Assembly: GCA_934351445.1 (NCBI GenBank)
Contig: CAKRIZ010000052.1
Span: 1-11,391, forward strand
Direction of reading: 5' to 3'
Source of the DNA: an uncultured Eubacterium sp.
GTDB lineage: Bacteria; Bacillota; Clostridia; Lachnospirales; Lachnospiraceae
Length of the DNA: 11,391 nucleotides
The first letter of the stretch is position 1; each line of letters opens with the position of its first letter. The notes below the pieces were generated by a model that was not told the origin of the DNA, did no database searches, and saw only the letters and a list, made by a program, of their open reading frames with translations. Made by a program: the position numbers and the translations under genes. Of the stretch, positions 2,726 to 11,172 are shown piece by piece.

Positions 2726-3583
2726 TTACGATTCCGGAGCCTGCTTTTTTGAATAGCGGCTGCGATATTGCCGTGGAGTCATACCTGTTTTCTTGCGGAA
2801 GATCTGCGAGAAATAGGACTGGGAAGAAAAACCGGCGCTGGAGGCAACCTGTGCGACAGACAGATTGGAGGAGATTAAAAGCTCCTTGCATGCGGCCAGC
2901 CGCCGGTCGGTCAGGTAATTGATCGGAGACTGACCGATACATTCCGTAAAGGAGTGAGCCAGATAAAATTTATTGATATGTGTAATTGCAGCCAGAGAAT
3001 CCAAAGTGATATTTCTGGAATAATTGACATCAATATAACGCTTGGCAAGTGCACATTCCTTCGATAGCTGGAAGGACGAATCAGAGATAACGGACAGGTG
3101 CTGTTTTCTGGAAATATATACCAGAAGAACCTGCAGCAGACCGTGGCACACCTGTTCAAAGCCCGGTTTTTTGTCATGGAATTCATGCATCATCAGCTGG
3201 GCAAAATTGATAAACTGTTTTTTGTCAGAATGATAACTGTAATAGCTGTAGCCTTTTGTGCCGTTCCGTTCCGGTTCGGTAAAAGAAAAGGCAAGCCCCT
3301 CTACGCCGAAGACGATGTATTCCATCGGATCAGTCGCTAATGTTTTCTCCGTGTGTTCTACATGCGGATTAATGATGATCAGATCATCCGGCTGGACAGA
3401 GATCGTCTCATCTTCTATATAAAAGGTGCCTGCGCCGCTTATGACATAGAATAATTCAGAGAACTGGTGCGTGTGTGGGAGTGACTGCCAGTCTTCTTCA
3501 TATTTTGAGATCGAGATATAGCGGAGCTGAAAGGCAACATGGCTGCAATCGGCAGCGTTCAGATTAATAAATTCATTACTCAT
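2726..3583 (-). CDS. AraC-family transcriptional regulator with N-terminal cupin
   Basis: This 285-aa cytoplasmic DNA-binding regulator probably senses a sugar and controls the divergent operon. Residues about 15-100 form a cupin/AraC-binding domain (HTHQFSELFYVISGAG at 37-52, then INPHVEHTEK at 71-80). Residues about 180-277 carry two helix-turn-helix motifs: the first near 193-213 (ITLDSLAAITHINKFYLAHSF), the second near 242-262 (SVAQVASSAGFSSQSYFSQIF), followed by the family signature KKTGMTPRQYRSRY (264-277). The ATG at 3583 has AAGAGGA at 3597-3591 on the minus strand, 7 nt upstream. It is divergent from the GH112-ABC-GH136 operon across 353 bases, the usual arrangement for a local activator. 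The inducer (lacto-N-biose, galacto-N-biose or a metabolite) is inference. No terminator with a clear T-run is seen after it. Confidence 0.93.
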   Translation of the reverse strand: MSNEFINLNAADCSHVAFQLRYISISKYEEDWQSLPHTHQFSELFYVISGAGTFYIEDETISVQPDDLIIINPHVEHTEKTLATDPMEYIVFGVEGLAFSFTEPERNGTKGYSYYSYHSDKKQFINFAQLMMHEFHDKKPGFEQVCHGLLQVLLVYISRKQHLSVISDSSFQLSKECALAKRYIDVNYSRNITLDSLAAITHINKFYLAHSFTECIGQSPINYLTDRRLAACKELLISSNLSVAQVASSAGFSSQSYFSQIFRKKTGMTPRQYRSRYSKKQAPES

Positions 3584-3910: not shown

Positions 3911-3936
3911 AAAGCGATTTGGAGGTAATCATATTG

Positions 3937-6093
3937 ATGACAGGAAGATTGACACTGCCGACAGATGCAGATGTCATTGATGAGACACTGCGTTTGAAAA
4001 ATCTTTTGGGAGCAGATGCGCTCAGGGATTGTGATGGAACAGAGATGCCAGATGCGCTTTTATCAGAACCGGTGAAAAAATATGCGACCTATTATACGAC
4101 CAGAAAAGATAATGAATGGGCAGAGAACAATCCGGATGAGATCCAGCAGGAATATCTGATCAGTGACCGTGTGACGGCAAGGAGTGAGACACTTCGCATC
4201 CGTCTGATGGAGGGTTTTCATACGGAGCAGTTAAAGGTAAATACACTGGATGATCCGAAGCGCTGGTGGGAAGTGATCGACCGGACGACCGGAGCAGTTG
4301 TCCCGACAGACCGGTGGGAGTTTGATGAGACTGCCGGAGAGGTGGAGATACAGACTACGCCGTACCATGAGTACACAGTCAGTTTTTTAGCTTTTTTAAT
4401 CTGGGATCCGGTACATATGTACAATTTTCTTACAAATGATTGGAAAGATACACCGCATCAGCTGACGTATGATGTGAGACAACCGAAAACTCAGAAATAT
4501 GTAAAAGAAAAGCTTAAGAAATGGTGCGAGGAAAATCCGCATATAGACGTTGTCCGCTTTACCACCTTTTTCCATCAGTTTACATTGACATTTGATGACA
4601 AAAAACGCGAAAAATACGTTGAATGGTTTGGATATAGCGCGAGCGTGAGTCCATATATTTTAGAAAAATTTGAAAAGTGGGCAGGATATACTTTCCGTCC
4701 GGAGTATATTGTCGATCAGGGATATCACAATAGTATGTTCCGGGTGCCGAGCAGACAGTTCAGGGACTTTATAGAGTTCCAGCAGATGGAGGTATGTGCG
4801 CTTGCAAAGGAGCTGGTGGATATTGTTCATTCCTATGGGAAGGAAGCAATGATGTTCCTTGGTGACCATTGGATCGGAACAGAACCATATGGTAAATATT
4901 TTGCGGGAATCGGGCTGGATGCAGTCGTAGGTTCTGTTGGAAGCGGTGTGACGCTTCGCATGATTTCAGATATTAAAGGTGTTGATTATACAGAGGGACG
5001 TCTTTTGCCATATTTCTTCCCGGATGTATTCTGTGAGGGCGGAGATCCGATCGGAGAAGCGAGAGACAATTGGAGAAAAGCAAGACGCGCACTTCTCCGT
5101 TCCCCATTAGACAGAATCGGATATGGCGGATACTTAAAGCTGGCAAGCAGCTGGCCGGGATTTATTGATGAAATCCAGAAAGTTGTTACCGAGTTCCGCG
5201 AGATTCATGAAAATATGCAAGGCACAGCCGCGTATGTAGCGCCTTTTAAGGTGGCAGTCCTCAATTGCTGGGGCGGGCTGAGAAAATGGATGTCCAATCA
5301 GGTGCATCACGCGATCTGGCATAGAGAAACTTATTCCGCAGAAGGTGTACTGGAGTGCCTGAGCGGGATGCCGTTTGAGGTAACATTTATTTCTTTTGAT
5401 GATGTGCGGAATGGAATTCCGGAGGATATTGGAGTGATCATCAATGTCGGAGATGCTTATACCGCCTTCAGCGGTGCGGAGAACTGGATTGATGAAAAAG
5501 TGGTGACAGCGATCCGGCGGTTTGTTGATGAGGGAGGCGGATTCATCGGAGTCGGTGAGCCGACTGCTTACCAGTATCAGGGCAGATACTTCCAGTTGTC
5601 TGATGTGCTTGGTGTAGACCGCGAGATGTGCTTCTCGCTCAGTACAGATAAGTATAATGAGATGGATGCGGAGCATTTTATTTTAGAGGATATTGACGGA
5701 GCTGTGGATTTCGGAGAGGGAACGAGCCGGGTCTATGCACAGGGCAGGCATTATCAGATCCTCGCAATGGATGGAGCGTACAGCCAGCTGGTTGTTAATG
5801 AATATGGAAAAGGACACAGCGTATATTTCGCGGGTCTGCCGTATTCCCCGCAGAACTGCCGGATACTGCTTCGTGCGATCTATTATGCAGCAGGCATGGA
5901 GACAGAGATGAAGCGTTATTATGTCACAAATGTAGAGACAGAAGTCACCGTGTTCCAGAAAACGGGAAAGATCGCAGTCATCAACAATTCCTCAGAAGCG
6001 CAGCACACAGATGTGTACATGAAGGGCAGTTGTGTATACGAGCTGGATTTAGAGCCGGGTGAGATGCGCTGGGTAGATGACATCATGGAGTAA
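3937..6093 (+). CDS. lnpA: GH112 beta-1,3-galactosyl-N-acetylhexosamine (lacto-N-biose/galacto-N-biose) phosphorylase
   Basis: This cytoplasmic enzyme of 718 aa phosphorolyses lacto-N-biose and/or galacto-N-biose to alpha-galactose-1-phosphate plus GlcNAc or GalNAc. It matches Bifidobacterium LnpA as I remember that sequence: GRLTLP at the start, NEW (about 61), HEYTVSFLAF and IWDPVHMYNFLTNDW, DVVRFTTFFHQFTLTFDDKKREK, EAMMFLGDHWIGTEPY, GLDAVVGSVGSG, YTEGRLLPYFFPD, DNWRKARRALLRSP and GGGFIGVGEPTA. The Asp of FLGD (residue 310) aligns with the catalytic acid Asp313 of the bifidobacterial enzyme. An insertion in the bifidobacterial C-terminal part is missing here, so this protein is slightly shorter. 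The start was set at ATG 3937 (MTGRLTLP). A TTG at 3919 lies upstream of and beside the GGAGG (3921-3925), so it cannot be the start; TTG 3934 remains possible. It is the first gene of the operon. The GlcNAc versus GalNAc preference, or the related galactosyl-rhamnose activity, cannot be settled by eye. Confidence 0.93.
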   Translation: MTGRLTLPTDADVIDETLRLKNLLGADALRDCDGTEMPDALLSEPVKKYATYYTTRKDNEWAENNPDEIQQEYLISDRVTARSETLRIRLMEGFHTEQLKVNTLDDPKRWWEVIDRTTGAVVPTDRWEFDETAGEVEIQTTPYHEYTVSFLAFLIWDPVHMYNFLTNDWKDTPHQLTYDVRQPKTQKYVKEKLKKWCEENPHIDVVRFTTFFHQFTLTFDDKKREKYVEWFGYSASVSPYILEKFEKWAGYTFRPEYIVDQGYHNSMFRVPSRQFRDFIEFQQMEVCALAKELVDIVHSYGKEAMMFLGDHWIGTEPYGKYFAGIGLDAVVGSVGSGVTLRMISDIKGVDYTEGRLLPYFFPDVFCEGGDPIGEARDNWRKARRALLRSPLDRIGYGGYLKLASSWPGFIDEIQKVVTEFREIHENMQGTAAYVAPFKVAVLNCWGGLRKWMSNQVHHAIWHRETYSAEGVLECLSGMPFEVTFISFDDVRNGIPEDIGVIINVGDAYTAFSGAENWIDEKVVTAIRRFVDEGGGFIGVGEPTAYQYQGRYFQLSDVLGVDREMCFSLSTDKYNEMDAEHFILEDIDGAVDFGEGTSRVYAQGRHYQILAMDGAYSQLVVNEYGKGHSVYFAGLPYSPQNCRILLRAIYYAAGMETEMKRYYVTNVETEVTVFQKTGKIAVINNSSEAQHTDVYMKGSCVYELDLEPGEMRWVDDIME

Positions 6094-6210: not shown

Positions 6211-7599
6211 ATGAAAAAGAAAATGTTAAGTGTGCTTTTAGTAGCAGCAATGACAGCATCTATGTTTGTCGGATGTGGAAACAAGACAGATAGCACAGAC
6301 AGCAGCAATGATGCAGCACAGGACGCAGACAAGGCAGATGCTGCAGACGATGACGCAGATGCAGATGCATCAGATGCCACAGACGCAGATGCAGCCAGCG
6401 AAGGGGACCAGACACTGACCGTATGGTGCTGGGATCCGAACTTCAACGTGTATGCGATGAAGCAGGCTGAGGCGATCTATCAGAAGGATCATCCGGACTT
6501 TAAGCTGGATATTCAGGAGAAGGTGTATTCGGATATTGAGACTGCGCTGATCACAGCAGCAGAGGCCGATGATTACAGCACCTTGCCGGATATCTTCCTG
6601 ATGCAGGATTATTCTTACCACAAAAATGTCACGAATTATCCCGGAATCTTTACAGAGCTGACAGATTCAGGAATTGATTTCTCACAGTTTTCTGCCGGTA
6701 AGTTAGCAGATTCTACCGTAGATGGAAAGAATTACGGTGTACCCTTTGATAACGGTGCTACTATTATGGCGATCCGCTCTGATATGGTAGAAGCAGCGGG
6801 GCTGAAGGTTGAGGATTTCAAGGATACGACATGGTCACAGTTCATGGAGCTTGCCAAGAAGGTTGTTGATAAGAACGGTGTTCCGATGCTGACATCTTCA
6901 GGTGGTTCTGAGATCATCATCGAGATGCTCCAGTCTGCCGGCGCTTCTCCTATGGTAGATGGCAAGATTGATTTAGTTGGAAATAAGGCACTGAAGAAAG
7001 CCATCGAGACATATAAACAGCTGATTGATGAGAAAATCATGGTTGACTATACGGATTGGGATCAGTACATTGCGTCCATGAATAAGGGCGAGGCAGCAGG
7101 TGTTATTCAGGGATGCTGGATCATGTCTTCCATCCAGGCAGCAGAAGATCAGTCCGGCAAATGGGCAATCGTAAATATGCCGAAATTAGATGATGTGGAT
7201 GGTGCTACAAACTATGCAAACTGTGGTGGCGCAAGCTGGGCGGTATCTTCCAACTGCAAGAACACAGACCTTGCATTTGATTTCATCAAAACAACCTTTG
7301 GTGGAAGCGTAGAGTTATATGATGACCTTCTTCCGAACGCAGGCGCGATCGCAAGCTACTTACCGGCAGCAGAGTCTGATGTTTACAATGAGTCATCTGA
7401 GTTCTATGGCGGACAGGCAGTATACAAGGATATCGTAGAATTCGCAGGAAAGGTACCCGGAATTGACTATGGTGCATACTACTCTGATATCAGAAGTGCA
7501 TTGACAGATGCGATCACAAATGTGGTTCAAAACAACGCAGATATCGATGAAGAGATCCAGACAGCTCAGGATACCGTAGAATTTAATATTGGAGAGTAA
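6211..7599 (+). CDS. Sugar ABC transporter substrate-binding lipoprotein (family 1, oligosaccharide type)
   Basis: This 462-aa extracellular, lipid-anchored protein captures the glycan for the two permeases that follow. Residues 1-22 are a lipoprotein signal (MKKK, hydrophobic core, then lipobox FVGC with Cys22). Residues about 23-67 are a low-complexity linker of Asp, Ala and Ser that would space the binding domain from the membrane. The mature domain begins about residue 68 (TLTVWCWDPNFNVYAMKQAE) and has the usual extracellular solute-binding pattern, including DNGATIMAIRSDMVEAAGL and WAIVNMP. The aromatic WCWDPNFN start resembles the bifidobacterial lacto-N-biose/galacto-N-biose binding protein, from memory. 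GGAGG at 6194-6198 lies 12 nt before the ATG. Context (GH112, GH136) suggests lacto-N-tetraose, lacto-N-biose or galacto-N-biose as ligand; this is inference. Confidence 0.92.
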   Translation: MKKKMLSVLLVAAMTASMFVGCGNKTDSTDSSNDAAQDADKADAADDDADADASDATDADAASEGDQTLTVWCWDPNFNVYAMKQAEAIYQKDHPDFKLDIQEKVYSDIETALITAAEADDYSTLPDIFLMQDYSYHKNVTNYPGIFTELTDSGIDFSQFSAGKLADSTVDGKNYGVPFDNGATIMAIRSDMVEAAGLKVEDFKDTTWSQFMELAKKVVDKNGVPMLTSSGGSEIIIEMLQSAGASPMVDGKIDLVGNKALKKAIETYKQLIDEKIMVDYTDWDQYIASMNKGEAAGVIQGCWIMSSIQAAEDQSGKWAIVNMPKLDDVDGATNYANCGGASWAVSSNCKNTDLAFDFIKTTFGGSVELYDDLLPNAGAIASYLPAAESDVYNESSEFYGGQAVYKDIVEFAGKVPGIDYGAYYSDIRSALTDAITNVVQNNADIDEEIQTAQDTVEFNIGE

Positions 7600-7673: not shown

Positions 7674-8552
7674 ATGGAAAAGAAAAAAGCAAAATTAAGT
7701 TTGGAAAAAAAATATAATCTTACCGGATGGGCATTTCTGCTTCCGGCAGCGCTTTTCATATTTTTGTTTTGTTTTTATCCGATGGCGCAGGCGATCCTGC
7801 TTTCTTTTAGAAAAACAGGAGGAGTATTTGCAGGAGTAACCAATTATGCAAGAATCCTAAAGGACAAAACATTCCAGCAGTGCCTGTTTAACACGATCTT
7901 CTATTTTGTAGTTCAGGTTCCGGTCATGCTCATTCTGGCATTGATTCTGGCACAGCTTTTGAACAACCCGAAGATCAAAGGAAAAGGAATTTTCAGAACC
8001 CTGATCTTTCTTCCGTGCGCAACGTCACTGGTATCTTATTCCATGATATTCAAGTCATTGTTTGCTCCGGATGGAGTGGTGAACCGGGTACTCACTGCGA
8101 TCGGTTTGTCTTCTGTGGACTGGTTCCAGAGCACCTGGCCGGCACGCTGGGTGATCGTGATCGCGCTGATCTGGAGATGGACCGGCTACAATATGGTATT
8201 TTATCTTGCAGGATTACAGAATATTGATTATTCTGTGTATGAAGCAAGCTACATAGATGGAGCAACGCCGTTTCAGCAGTTTACAAGGATTACGATCCCG
8301 CTGCTCAAGCCGACGATCCTGATGACAGCGATCATGTCGACATCCGGAACACTGCAGCTCTTTGATGAGTCTATGAACCTGACTGCCGGAGGTCCCGGAA
8401 AGTCAACGATGACACTGGCGCATTACATTTACAATATCTCCTTTGTAGAGACACCTAAATTTAACTATGCGGCAGCATTGTCTGTATGTATTCTTGTTAT
8501 GGTAGCAGTCCTGTCTGCGATTCAGATGAAAGTAGGTGACAAACGTGACTAA
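7674..8552 (+). CDS. Sugar ABC transporter permease, MalF/UgpA-like
   Basis: This 292-aa inner-membrane protein is one half of the transport channel. It has a short cytoplasmic N-terminus (Lys-rich, residues 1-13) and about six membrane segments, the first near 16-40 (GWAFLLPAALFIFLFCFYP). The EAA loop that docks the ATPase is at about 190-211 (EASYIDGATPFQQFTRITIPLL), with the conserved Gly at 196. The LTAGGPGKSTMTLAHYIY stretch (236-253) is typical of the MalF/UgpA branch of CUT1 importers. GGAGAGG (7664-7670) precedes the ATG by 3-6 nt. It overlaps the next permease gene by a few bases, which fits translational coupling. No ATPase gene is present in the operon, so a shared MsmK-type ATPase coded elsewhere is expected. 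Confidence 0.93.
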   Translation: MEKKKAKLSLEKKYNLTGWAFLLPAALFIFLFCFYPMAQAILLSFRKTGGVFAGVTNYARILKDKTFQQCLFNTIFYFVVQVPVMLILALILAQLLNNPKIKGKGIFRTLIFLPCATSLVSYSMIFKSLFAPDGVVNRVLTAIGLSSVDWFQSTWPARWVIVIALIWRWTGYNMVFYLAGLQNIDYSVYEASYIDGATPFQQFTRITIPLLKPTILMTAIMSTSGTLQLFDESMNLTAGGPGKSTMTLAHYIYNISFVETPKFNYAAALSVCILVMVAVLSAIQMKVGDKRD

Positions 8553-9351
8553 TATGAAAAAAATTATTTCCTACGCCGTGTTAGTCCTTGCGAGCTTTTT
8601 GTCCGCATTTCCGTTATATTATATGCTTTGCGGAGCAACGAACGCCAGCATCGATGTTGTCAGAGGCCGCTTGTATCCGGGTCTGCATCTGGCGGAAAAT
8701 TTCAAGACGCTGGTCGATATGCAGAACCTCGGACTTGCGATGTTTAATTCCTTCCGGAACGCGATCATTATTACACTCGTGACCCTGCTTGTATGCTCGA
8801 TCGCAGGATATGGCTTCGAGATCTATCACGATAAGGGCAAAGATCTGTTGATGAGCATCCTGCTGCTCGCCATGATGCTTCCGTTTGTAGCGATCATGAT
8901 CCCGTTGTTTAAGATGTTCACCTCATGGAAATTGGTGAATACATGGATTGCTTTGGCACTTCCGTCTATTTCGACGCCGTTTATGATCATGCTGTTCCGT
9001 CAGGCGGCCCGTTCCTTCCCGCATGATATTATCGAGGCTGCGAGACTCGAGGGACTGAGCGAGGTGCAGATCTTCTTTCAGATGTTCATTCCGGTTATGA
9101 GGTCTACCTATGGCGCAGCCATGACAGTAACCTTTATGAATGCATGGAATAACTATCTGTGGCCGACAATCATCCTGCAGGACAACAAGGCGATCACTAT
9201 GCCGCAGCTGGTGGCAAACCTAAAGAGTGGCTATAGTGTAGATTATGGTATGTTGATGCTTGGTGTATTGATCTGTACGCTTCCGACGGCGATCATCTTC
9301 CTGTGCTTACAAAAGAGCTTTGCAAATGGAATTACAGGAGCGGTGAAGTGA
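8545..9351 (+). CDS. Sugar ABC transporter permease, MalG/UgpE-like
   Basis: This is the second channel subunit of the importer, 268 aa from the chosen start. Six membrane segments are visible, beginning with IISYAVLVLASFLSAFPLYY. The EAA loop lies at about 164-184 (EAARLEGLSEVQIFFQMFIP), and the C-terminal FANGITGAVK is the usual end of MalG-type permeases. Start choice: GTG at 8545 has AGGTGA (8534-8539) 5 nt upstream and overlaps the preceding gene by 8 nt. GTG 8536 lies inside that ribosome-binding site, and ATG 8554 is rather far from it, though it remains possible. The stop codon TGA (9349-9351) shares its last base with the ATG of the next gene, so the two are probably coupled in translation. 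Confidence 0.92.
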   Translation: MTNMKKIISYAVLVLASFLSAFPLYYMLCGATNASIDVVRGRLYPGLHLAENFKTLVDMQNLGLAMFNSFRNAIIITLVTLLVCSIAGYGFEIYHDKGKDLLMSILLLAMMLPFVAIMIPLFKMFTSWKLVNTWIALALPSISTPFMIMLFRQAARSFPHDIIEAARLEGLSEVQIFFQMFIPVMRSTYGAAMTVTFMNAWNNYLWPTIILQDNKAITMPQLVANLKSGYSVDYGMLMLGVLICTLPTAIIFLCLQKSFANGITGAVK

Positions 9352-9842
9352 TGCAGCAGAGAGAACCAATGAATAGAGAATTTATGAATCGAGAGCACAT
9401 GAACAGGGAGCGCATGAGAGAGGCAGAAGGTGCCCTCCGTCTGGCGTATCAGCTCGGATTGCTGGAGGATCCTTCGATGAAGGGGCTTGAGGTGAGACGC
9501 TGGAGGCATAATGAAAAGCTGCAGCAGATGGAACAGGCACAGGAGGTGTTTTATGGCCCGCGCTATTTTTCGGCGCCGGCGTATCTGCAGTATGAGCTGA
9601 CCCGCCTGAAGCTGGATTTTGTACAGCCATCGGAGGCCGTGAAAAAGACTGGTGTGTGTCCGGACTTTACGGAGCAGCAGAAGAGGATGTTTTATGAGCA
9701 GAACATGGATCTGTTCGGACGTTATCAGGGGGATTTTTTTTCCTATGAAGAAGTGGCGCAGATGATTGAGAAGCGATTGAGGGAGGATGCATATGACAGG
9801 CTTGTCCAGAACCTATTATGTGAGCGCGAAGACGGGCAGTGA
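9351..9842 (+). CDS. Probable GH136 lacto-N-biosidase subunit I (LnbY-like helical/chaperone subunit)
   Basis: This is a 163-aa charged, helix-rich protein without a signal peptide or membrane segment. By itself it is not a recognised enzyme. The C-terminal part (about 105-155, FTEQQKRMFYEQNMDLFGRY then SYEEVAQMIEKRLREDAYDR) recalls the flanking helices of SurA/PrsA-type folding factors, but no parvulin isomerase domain is present. Its place directly before and overlapping a beta-helix protein matches the two-part GH136 enzymes known from Clostridiales (Lnb136 I and II) and the LnbY-LnbX pair of Bifidobacterium longum, in which the small partner is needed for active enzyme. It is shorter than the equivalent domain I remember in a fused Eubacterium enzyme (about 215 aa). 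ATG 9351 overlaps the permease stop, with AGGAG at 9336-9340. Residues 7-21 are a repeated MNREx segment. Confidence 0.65.
   Translation: MQQREPMNREFMNREHMNRERMREAEGALRLAYQLGLLEDPSMKGLEVRRWRHNEKLQQMEQAQEVFYGPRYFSAPAYLQYELTRLKLDFVQPSEAVKKTGVCPDFTEQQKRMFYEQNMDLFGRYQGDFFSYEEVAQMIEKRLREDAYDRLVQNLLCEREDGQ
9369..9413 (+). repeat. Three tandem 15-nt repeats coding MNREF-MNREH-MNRER
   Basis: Three in-frame 15-base units (9369-9383, 9384-9398, 9399-9413) each begin with ATG and read Met-Asn-Arg-Glu-x. A partial fourth (ATGAGAGAG) follows at 9414. The units differ by a few bases, mostly at silent positions and in the last codon. They lie in the N-terminus of the putative GH136 subunit I and each supplies a possible, but poorly supported, internal start. 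Confidence 0.8.
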
Positions 9843-11088
9843 TCAAAATGACGGACAGACACCGGAGCGTGCATTTGCCAGTCTTTTTGCGGTCAATCAC
9901 ATGTCGCTGCAGCCGGGAGACCGGGTCTTGCTTGAACGGGGCAGTGTATTTTACGGACAGTATCTGCAGGTGACTGACAGCGGCAGCGCGGATGCGCCTA
10001 TTGTGATCGGGGCATATGGAGATGAGGAAGAAGCGGCACCGTGTATCGAAGCCTGCGGGCAGGGAATCTGGTATCAGGATTATGGACAGCCTCTGGACGC
10101 GCCGACACATGTCTATCATGGTTATGTATCATCGGCGGTACTGCTGTACGATGCCCAGTACATCCTTGTGGAAGATCTGGAGCTGACGAATTCGGGGCAG
10201 GAGATCATCGGAGAGCGGTATTCACAGGCAGATAAGATGAACCGCACCGGTGTTGCAGTGGTCGCAAAGGACAAAGGTGTCCGGCGTGGAATTACGCTCC
10301 GCCGGCTTTGGATCCATGATGTCCATGGAAATGTGTATGATAAGCACATGAATAACGGTGGTATCTACATGACAGCGCTTCGCCCGGAACGTGAGGAAGT
10401 GACAGGTGCTGCCCGTTACAGCGATATCACGGTGGAAGGCTGCTTTGTCTACCGTGTCAGCCGCTGGGGAATCGCAGTGGGGTACACCTATGCGCATGAA
10501 CAGTTTCGGGGCGCACAATTAAGCGAGGATACCTTTTTGAAGTACGGACATGAAAATGTGCGGATCAGTGATAATTATGTCAAGGAGGCAGGCGGTGACG
10601 GTATAACAGTCATGTATGCGCTGCGTCCGCTGGTGGAGCATAATCTGTCAGATTCGGCTGCATGTGAGATCAATGACCGGATCTATCGCGATCCGGGAGA
10701 TCGGATGGGCAAGGTGGCAGCCGGCATCTGGCCGTGGAAATGCAAGGATGCCTGTTTCCGTTATAATGAGGCGGCGGATACGAGGCTGAATCAGGATGGC
10801 ATGGCGTATGATGCGGATTCCGGTGACGGAACCGTGTATGAATATAATTACAGCCGGCAGAATGAGGGCGGCTGCGTGATGTTCTGCCAGCAGGAGGCGA
10901 TCCACAATACATTCCGCAAGAATGTCAGCTATGATGACCTCGGAGGAACGATCAGTCCTGCAGAGAATCCGGATGCACTGCTGGAAGACAATGTTTTTTA
11001 TGTGCGCGAGGGCGTGCCCTTTGTCCGCAAACATATGGATGGCGGCTGCTTTGAACAGATCAATAATCGTGTGATACAGTGCTGGTAG
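9793..11088 (+). CDS. Probable GH136 lacto-N-biosidase subunit II (LnbX-like right-handed beta-helix)
   Basis: This 431-aa right-handed parallel beta-helix protein has no visible signal peptide. The N-terminus (TYYVSAKTGSDQNDGQTPER, about 7-26) followed by GDRVLLERGSVFYGQ and APIVIGAYG is the usual first turn of such helices. Repeated strand turns follow (ILVEDLELTNSG, ITLRRLWIHDVHGNVYD, ITVEGCFVYRVSRWGIAVG, VRISDNYVKEAGGDGITVMY, VYEYNYSRQNEGGCVMFC). GH136 enzymes have this fold and release lacto-N-biose from lacto-N-tetraose using two Asp residues seven apart (Asp411/Asp418 in LnbX, from memory). Here Asp335 and Asp342 (NQDGMAYDADSG) have that spacing and a similar distance to the C-terminus. 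The start was set at ATG 9793: GGGAGG at 9781-9786 is 6 nt upstream, whereas ATG 9787 touches it. It overlaps subunit I by 50 nt. An unrelated pectate-lyase-like glycan enzyme is the main alternative. Confidence 0.7.
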   Translation: MTGLSRTYYVSAKTGSDQNDGQTPERAFASLFAVNHMSLQPGDRVLLERGSVFYGQYLQVTDSGSADAPIVIGAYGDEEEAAPCIEACGQGIWYQDYGQPLDAPTHVYHGYVSSAVLLYDAQYILVEDLELTNSGQEIIGERYSQADKMNRTGVAVVAKDKGVRRGITLRRLWIHDVHGNVYDKHMNNGGIYMTALRPEREEVTGAARYSDITVEGCFVYRVSRWGIAVGYTYAHEQFRGAQLSEDTFLKYGHENVRISDNYVKEAGGDGITVMYALRPLVEHNLSDSAACEINDRIYRDPGDRMGKVAAGIWPWKCKDACFRYNEAADTRLNQDGMAYDADSGDGTVYEYNYSRQNEGGCVMFCQQEAIHNTFRKNVSYDDLGGTISPAENPDALLEDNVFYVREGVPFVRKHMDGGCFEQINNRVIQCW

Positions 11089-11128: not shown

Positions 11129-11172
11129 AACCAGCTTATCTGTGGTTTTATACTACCACGAATAAGCTGGTT
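11129..11172 (+). terminator. Hairpin ending the glycan operon
   Basis: AACCAGCTTAT (11129-11139) pairs with ATAAGCTGGTT (11162-11172), and inside it TGTGGT (11141-11146) pairs with ACCACG (11155-11160), giving about 17 bp with one mismatch and an 8-nt loop. It lies 40 bases after the beta-helix stop codon. The downstream T-run on the plus strand is short (TTTGTGT); on the minus strand the stem is followed by GTTTGTTTTGG, so it may also stop leftward transcripts. Confidence 0.6.

Follow-up and report, generated by a model that had tools for sequence, protein, structure and literature searches.

Overlapping genes for a predicted intracellular two-subunit GH136 lacto-N-biosidase in an uncultured Eubacterium sp.

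We analysed a window of 11,391 nucleotides (nt) from an uncultured Eubacterium sp. (assembly GCA_934351445.1, contig CAKRIZ010000052.1). From left to right, this whole stretch carries genes for CbiB (+ strand), a MATE transporter (-), an AraC-family regulator (-), a GH112 phosphorylase (+), a solute-binding protein (SBP, +), two ATP-binding cassette (ABC) permeases (both +), a small helical protein, here called subunit I (+), and a beta-helix protein, subunit II (+). The last two genes almost certainly specify a two-part gut-bacterial enzyme of known type, which cuts a sugar of milk and mucin into lacto-N-biose (LNB) and lactose. An initial annotation had read them as a split GH136-type lacto-N-biosidase in one operon with GH112 and an importer, and it was right on all essential points. 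Both open reading frames (ORFs) lie where it put them, subunit II groups with the Eubacterium ramulus enzyme ErLnb136, subunit I matches the N-terminal domain of that enzyme, and GH112, the SBP and the two permeases, together with AraC, all gave profile matches.

The beta-helix protein is the catalytic subunit of a GH136 enzyme. In phmmer it matched the crystallised ErLnb136 (6kqs) with 591 bits (E=8.6e-177) and 5gqc with 308 bits. Its AlphaFold2-type model (predicted local distance difference test score, pLDDT, 94.9) bore out the predicted beta-helix, and Foldseek matched the model to 6kqs with TMq 0.97, root-mean-square deviation (rmsd) 0.8 Å and 62% identity; the 0.8 Å over 422 residues is a global figure, with no residue-level superposition. 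In the family tree, subunit II fell inside GH136, within a 100/100 clade of 37 rows that includes 6kqs. Asp335 and Asp342, singled out beforehand as a pair seven residues apart, have exactly these numbers when the ATG at 9793 is the start. They align, without a gap around them, with D568 (acid/base) and D575 (nucleophile) of ErLnb136, and W315 aligns with W548; all three positions were invariant in 81 of 81 alignment rows. By this alignment, D335 would be the acid/base, D342 the nucleophile and W315 the residue stacking on galactose. That subunit II is a hydrolase, lyase or epimerase of some generic beta-helix kind, sitting beside GH112 by chance, is extremely improbable: Pfam yields Beta_helix alone for subunit II and other beta-helix enzymes do appear further down the fold list, but the phmmer match to 6kqs, the 100/100 clade and the 0.8 Å superposition lead us to reject another beta-helix enzyme. 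The precomputed label of P0121, which is 100% identical to subunit II, adds PF22842, a generic Pel9A-like beta-helix family. Judged from its sequence, the window pair is not the bifidobacterial LnbX/LnbY orthologue, and the NCBIfam equivalog cut-offs for LnbX and LnbY were not reached (316.7 of 2500 bits and 30.3 of 400 bits). A hydropathy scan, which is simple and not a trained predictor, found an export signal on neither subunit.

Subunit I is the GH136 partner subunit. Both by sequence (E=3e-18) and by fold, its best match was the helical N-terminal domain of ErLnb136. Its AlphaFold2 model was helical, as the initial annotation had expected (mean pLDDT 89.7), and by hydropathy it has neither a transmembrane segment nor a signal peptide. 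Y125 aligns with the active-site Y145 of ErLnb136. Compared with ErLnb136I, about 35 residues are missing between chain positions 52 and 88, plus a part after about chain 180-200. At the beginning of subunit I there is a 15-bp imperfect tandem repeat (9369-9413; MNREF-MNREH-MNRER), with an ATG and a purine-rich stretch in each unit; this part is poorly ordered in the model, and P0001, 96% identical to subunit I, has one more unit.

Related loci, 77 in number, were collected by an exact-word scan that gives the best 80 of 94 relatives and is not a census. The two genes were split and overlapping, without export signals by the same hydropathy scan, in 30 of these loci (31 with the window), and fused in five (L008, L009, L010, L019 and L077). 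A hydrophobic leader on subunit II was found in 32 loci of the LnbX/TnX branch, together with a subunit I that has a hydrophobic N-terminus, an open frame of 249-398 amino acids (aa) and a stop that lies 110 nt or more upstream of the subunit II domain. L055 has the same leader type, but its contig starts too close to show subunit I. The remaining nine (L033, L038, L043, L049, L050, L058, L062, L069, L070) had no strongly hydrophobic leader and no subunit I match; two subunit I profiles run against the ORFs of these loci gave a best E of 0.6. All nine GH136-type ORFs retain the W/D/D catalytic residues, and these proteins may work without a subunit I. Seven of the nine proteins have a C-terminal extension of about 80-115 aa, L038 and L069 adjoin GH112, the L050 frame stops early (404 aa) and the L070 frame starts at the contig end.

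Against this set, the size of subunit I could be judged. It had been called quite short before, which is true; it is not unusual, however, since its counterparts in the other 30 split intracellular loci are about 139-165 aa long (up to 189-190 aa in L006 and L007 with the first ATG). Among the split intracellular loci that we examined, a minimal subunit I of some 150 residues is thus normal, and in view of the comparable proteins in these 30 loci we reject the idea that the shortness reflects decay. The residue aligned with Y145 is a Tyr in 34 of the 37 subunit I sequences of the intracellular type, split or fused and with the window counted; L016 has Cys there, and L025 and L035 have Phe.

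The search was extended to 397 genomes in the family of the L001 genome, 23 of which matched subunit I at E<=1e-3. Two of the 23 were of the intracellular type (1.5e-71, split, in L001's own genome; 9.9e-42, fused), and the best matches of the remaining 21 genomes, which were not checked one by one, ranged from 1.9e-20 to 6.5e-5. This search also yielded L079, a sixth fused case. In the genus of the uncultured Roseburia locus L046, six of 15 genomes matched, with the starting genome counted, and none of the 15 matches listed, all with open frames of 815-1501 aa, resembled the intracellular type. In several secreted-type loci, two to four GH136-type ORFs stand in a row downstream of a single subunit I gene: there are four subunit II-type ORFs each in L046 and L051, and two each in L037, L039, L040, L041, L044, L047, L052, L066 and others. 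In such loci, the same subunit I may partner more than one catalytic subunit.

The initial annotation had described the helical protein as directly followed by the beta-helix protein. The order is the same, but the genes are not merely adjacent: they share 50 nt (9793-9842), which are read in different frames. A Shine-Dalgarno-like GAGGGAGG lies inside the subunit I frame and ends 6 nt upstream of ATG 9793, from which 431 aa are read. This ATG is most likely the start of subunit II; ATG 9787 touches GAGGGAGG and is less likely. In every split pair examined (31 of 31), the subunit II frame is +1 relative to subunit I, and the subunit I stop ends 10-28 nt downstream of the first conserved aromatic codon of subunit II. 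These pairs are related by descent and are not 31 independent events. The identical overlap phase in all of them rules out a gene split by sequencing error. By eye, a purine-rich stretch precedes most subunit II starts; L003-L005 have no ATG for subunit II, where TTG or GTG must serve.

Pairwise identity at subunit I codon positions 1/2/3 was 0.67/0.70/0.41 in the region well upstream of the overlap, 0.66/0.87/0.53 immediately before it and 0.60/0.79/0.55 within it. The rise at position 3 and the fall at position 1 in the overlap fit a second coding frame. They do not prove dual coding, because position 3 is already raised just upstream, at the Shine-Dalgarno-like stretch.

The single phase (+1, 31 of 31 split pairs) and the existence of fused relatives could also suggest that programmed +1 frameshifting joins the two subunits into one chain, mimicking the fused ErLnb136. 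The Shine-Dalgarno-like site and the ATG in the overlap speak against it. The slip would be confined to about 60 nt because the subunit II frame has a stop at 9778-9780, and its product would have 0 residues between the domains, whereas in all six fused relatives the two domain matches are separated by 62-87 residues. We therefore regard frameshifting as very improbable. Instead, the overlap and the internal Shine-Dalgarno-like site most likely couple the translation of subunit II to that of subunit I.

The fused enzymes bear on the history of this arrangement. The five fused rows form two tree groups, L019 and L077 with 6kqs, and L008, L009 and L010, and both groups lie within a clade of 13 rows, seven of which are split pairs. 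The tree alone thus permits one fusion with a later split. By eye, the linkers are unlike each other: short tandem repeats occur in L008 and L010, and none in L019, L077 and L079. In the fused genes of L008 (8230-10281) and L010 (1767-3911), the repeats are of the VQGCDS / VQDCRS type and look as though gene fusion had involved a duplication of the overlap region. Because the linkers are dissimilar and a re-split would need to recreate the same phase, two fusions are favoured over a re-split, without certainty. Tentatively, and at somewhat less than even chance, the fixed-phase overlap may have persisted across several Clostridia families through coupled translation and assembly of a 1:1 heterodimer, with fusions arising from it at least two times. 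The main text of PMC7335108 uses the word overlap once, of substrates; we make no claim that the gene overlap has gone unreported.

The remaining features of the window are listed in Table 1. GH112 scored 1061 bits against TIGR02336 (cut-off 560); its start listed by the ORF finder is a TTG, and the real start is possibly a few codons further in. The two permease genes overlap by 17 nt, and the TGA of permease B and the ATG of subunit I have one base in common (TGATG). An ATG for subunit I at the equivalent permease-stop position is also found in L001-L005 and L025; this overlap is 4 nt in L016, and L018 has a gap of about 97 nt with no overlap. The gene order AraC-GH112-SBP-permease-permease-I-II is common to the window and L001-L005, and many split loci are ordered otherwise, with GH112 after subunit II or with no GH112 within the available stretch. 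Between the window and the fused-GH136 locus of E. ramulus strain 21 (L077), the importer proteins share 51-59% identity, and the SBP 51%. The inverted repeat after the last gene is possibly the transcription end of the operon, although it lacks a clear T-run. It was not among the terminators listed by a terminator scan, and the promoter and terminator scans stood at shuffle level (15 versus a mean of 14.5, and 6 versus 5.8). A link of CbiB and MATE, at the left edge, to glycan use is not evident.

Table 1. Features of the window, with positions counted from its first letter
Feature	Position	Strand	Evidence or remark
CbiB cobalamin gene and MATE transporter	171-2547	+ (CbiB), - (MATE)	Left of the operon
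AraC-family regulator	2726..3583	-	PF12833 and cupin domain; divergent from GH112
GH112 lacto-N-biose/galacto-N-biose phosphorylase	3919..6093	+	PF09508/PF17385/PF17386; TIGR02336
ABC solute-binding protein	6211..7599	+	PF01547, E=2.5e-23; lipobox-like N-terminus by eye
ABC permease A (CUT1-type by resemblance)	7674..8552	+	PF00528, E=3.9e-19
ABC permease B (CUT1-type by resemblance)	8536..9351	+	PF00528, E=2e-20
GH136 subunit I (Lnb136I/LnbY-like), helical, 163 aa	9351..9842	+	
Shine-Dalgarno-like GAGGGAGG for subunit II	9779..9786	+	Sequence read; inside subunit I frame
GH136 subunit II (Lnb136II/LnbX-like), catalytic beta-helix, 431 aa	9793..11088	+	phmmer, tree, model, Foldseek
11-bp inverted repeat AACCAGCTTAT...ATAAGCTGGTT after last gene	11129..11172		Read by eye

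This kind of system is already published, and the window carries an ordinary member of the kind described in the main text of PMC7335108. According to that text, the human milk oligosaccharide locus signature of Roseburia is GH112, GH136, an ABC transporter and a transcriptional regulator, and these four elements occur together in the window. ErLnb136 (6kqs/6kqt) shares with the window enzyme the fold, catalytic pair, Trp, loop lengths, helical subunit I domain and intracellular clade; it differs in that its two parts are fused through a linker into a single chain and its helical domain is longer, and its locus is described with GH42 in place of GH112 (PMC7335108). RhLnb136 I/II of Roseburia hominis is likewise described as a pair of unfused subunits that lack signal peptides, with GH112 and an ABC importer encoded in the same locus, and as active only when I and II are co-expressed (PMC7335108); this likeness comes from the published description. 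LnbX/LnbY of Bifidobacterium longum and TnX (7v6m) have a homologous catalytic domain and the catalytic Asp pair, but stand on the other main branch of the tree. 7v6m came first by VIA Z for the subunit II model (48.9, rmsd 1.0 Å). RiLea/b136 of Roseburia inulinivorans is also a two-subunit GH136 enzyme, set apart by its description in PMC7335108 as predicted extracellular, with shortened loops and fucosylated substrates.

The last comparison bears on the substrate. The same enzyme could act on another glycan (galacto-N-biose (GNB), fucosylated Lewis a/b or a mucin core) instead of plain lacto-N-tetraose. PMC7335108 reports that the R. inulinivorans GH136 releases Lewis a/b units and that its GH112 is equal on LNB and GNB, and the best PDB match of the window SBP was a generic sugar binder (E=2.4e-16) from which specificity is not predictable. 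On the other side, with loop limits taken from PMC7335108, both specificity loops are as long as those of ErLnb136; loop 1 is identical at 10 of 12 positions, and loop 2 is more diverged. The Lewis a/b enzyme is predicted extracellular in that paper, whereas the window enzyme has no signal by hydropathy, and none of the nine window ORFs scanned is a fucosidase. We consider another glycan quite improbable. In an alignment that contains no Lewis a/b enzyme, the unshortened loops 1 and 2 would favour lacto-N-tetraose over Lewis a/b glycans.

Taken together, the locus very probably encodes an intracellular two-subunit GH136 lacto-N-biosidase. By analogy with ErLnb136 and the R. hominis enzyme, the SBP would bind lacto-N-tetraose or mucin-derived glycans bearing lacto-N-biose, and the two permeases would import them, presumably under AraC regulation. 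In the cell, a heterodimer of subunits I and II would release lacto-N-biose. D335 would act as the acid/base and D342 as the nucleophile, and subunit I would clasp the beta-helix and contribute Y125 to the active site. GH112 would then phosphorolyse the released lacto-N-biose.

Our results thus add an intracellular lacto-N-biosidase, identified with confidence, that would escape generic annotation, because Pfam gives nothing in subunit I and a beta-helix alone in subunit II, as the initial annotation had foreseen. The conserved overlap, in turn, offers a testable idea on how equal amounts of the two subunits of the heterodimer may be produced, and on the possible origin of the fused enzymes.
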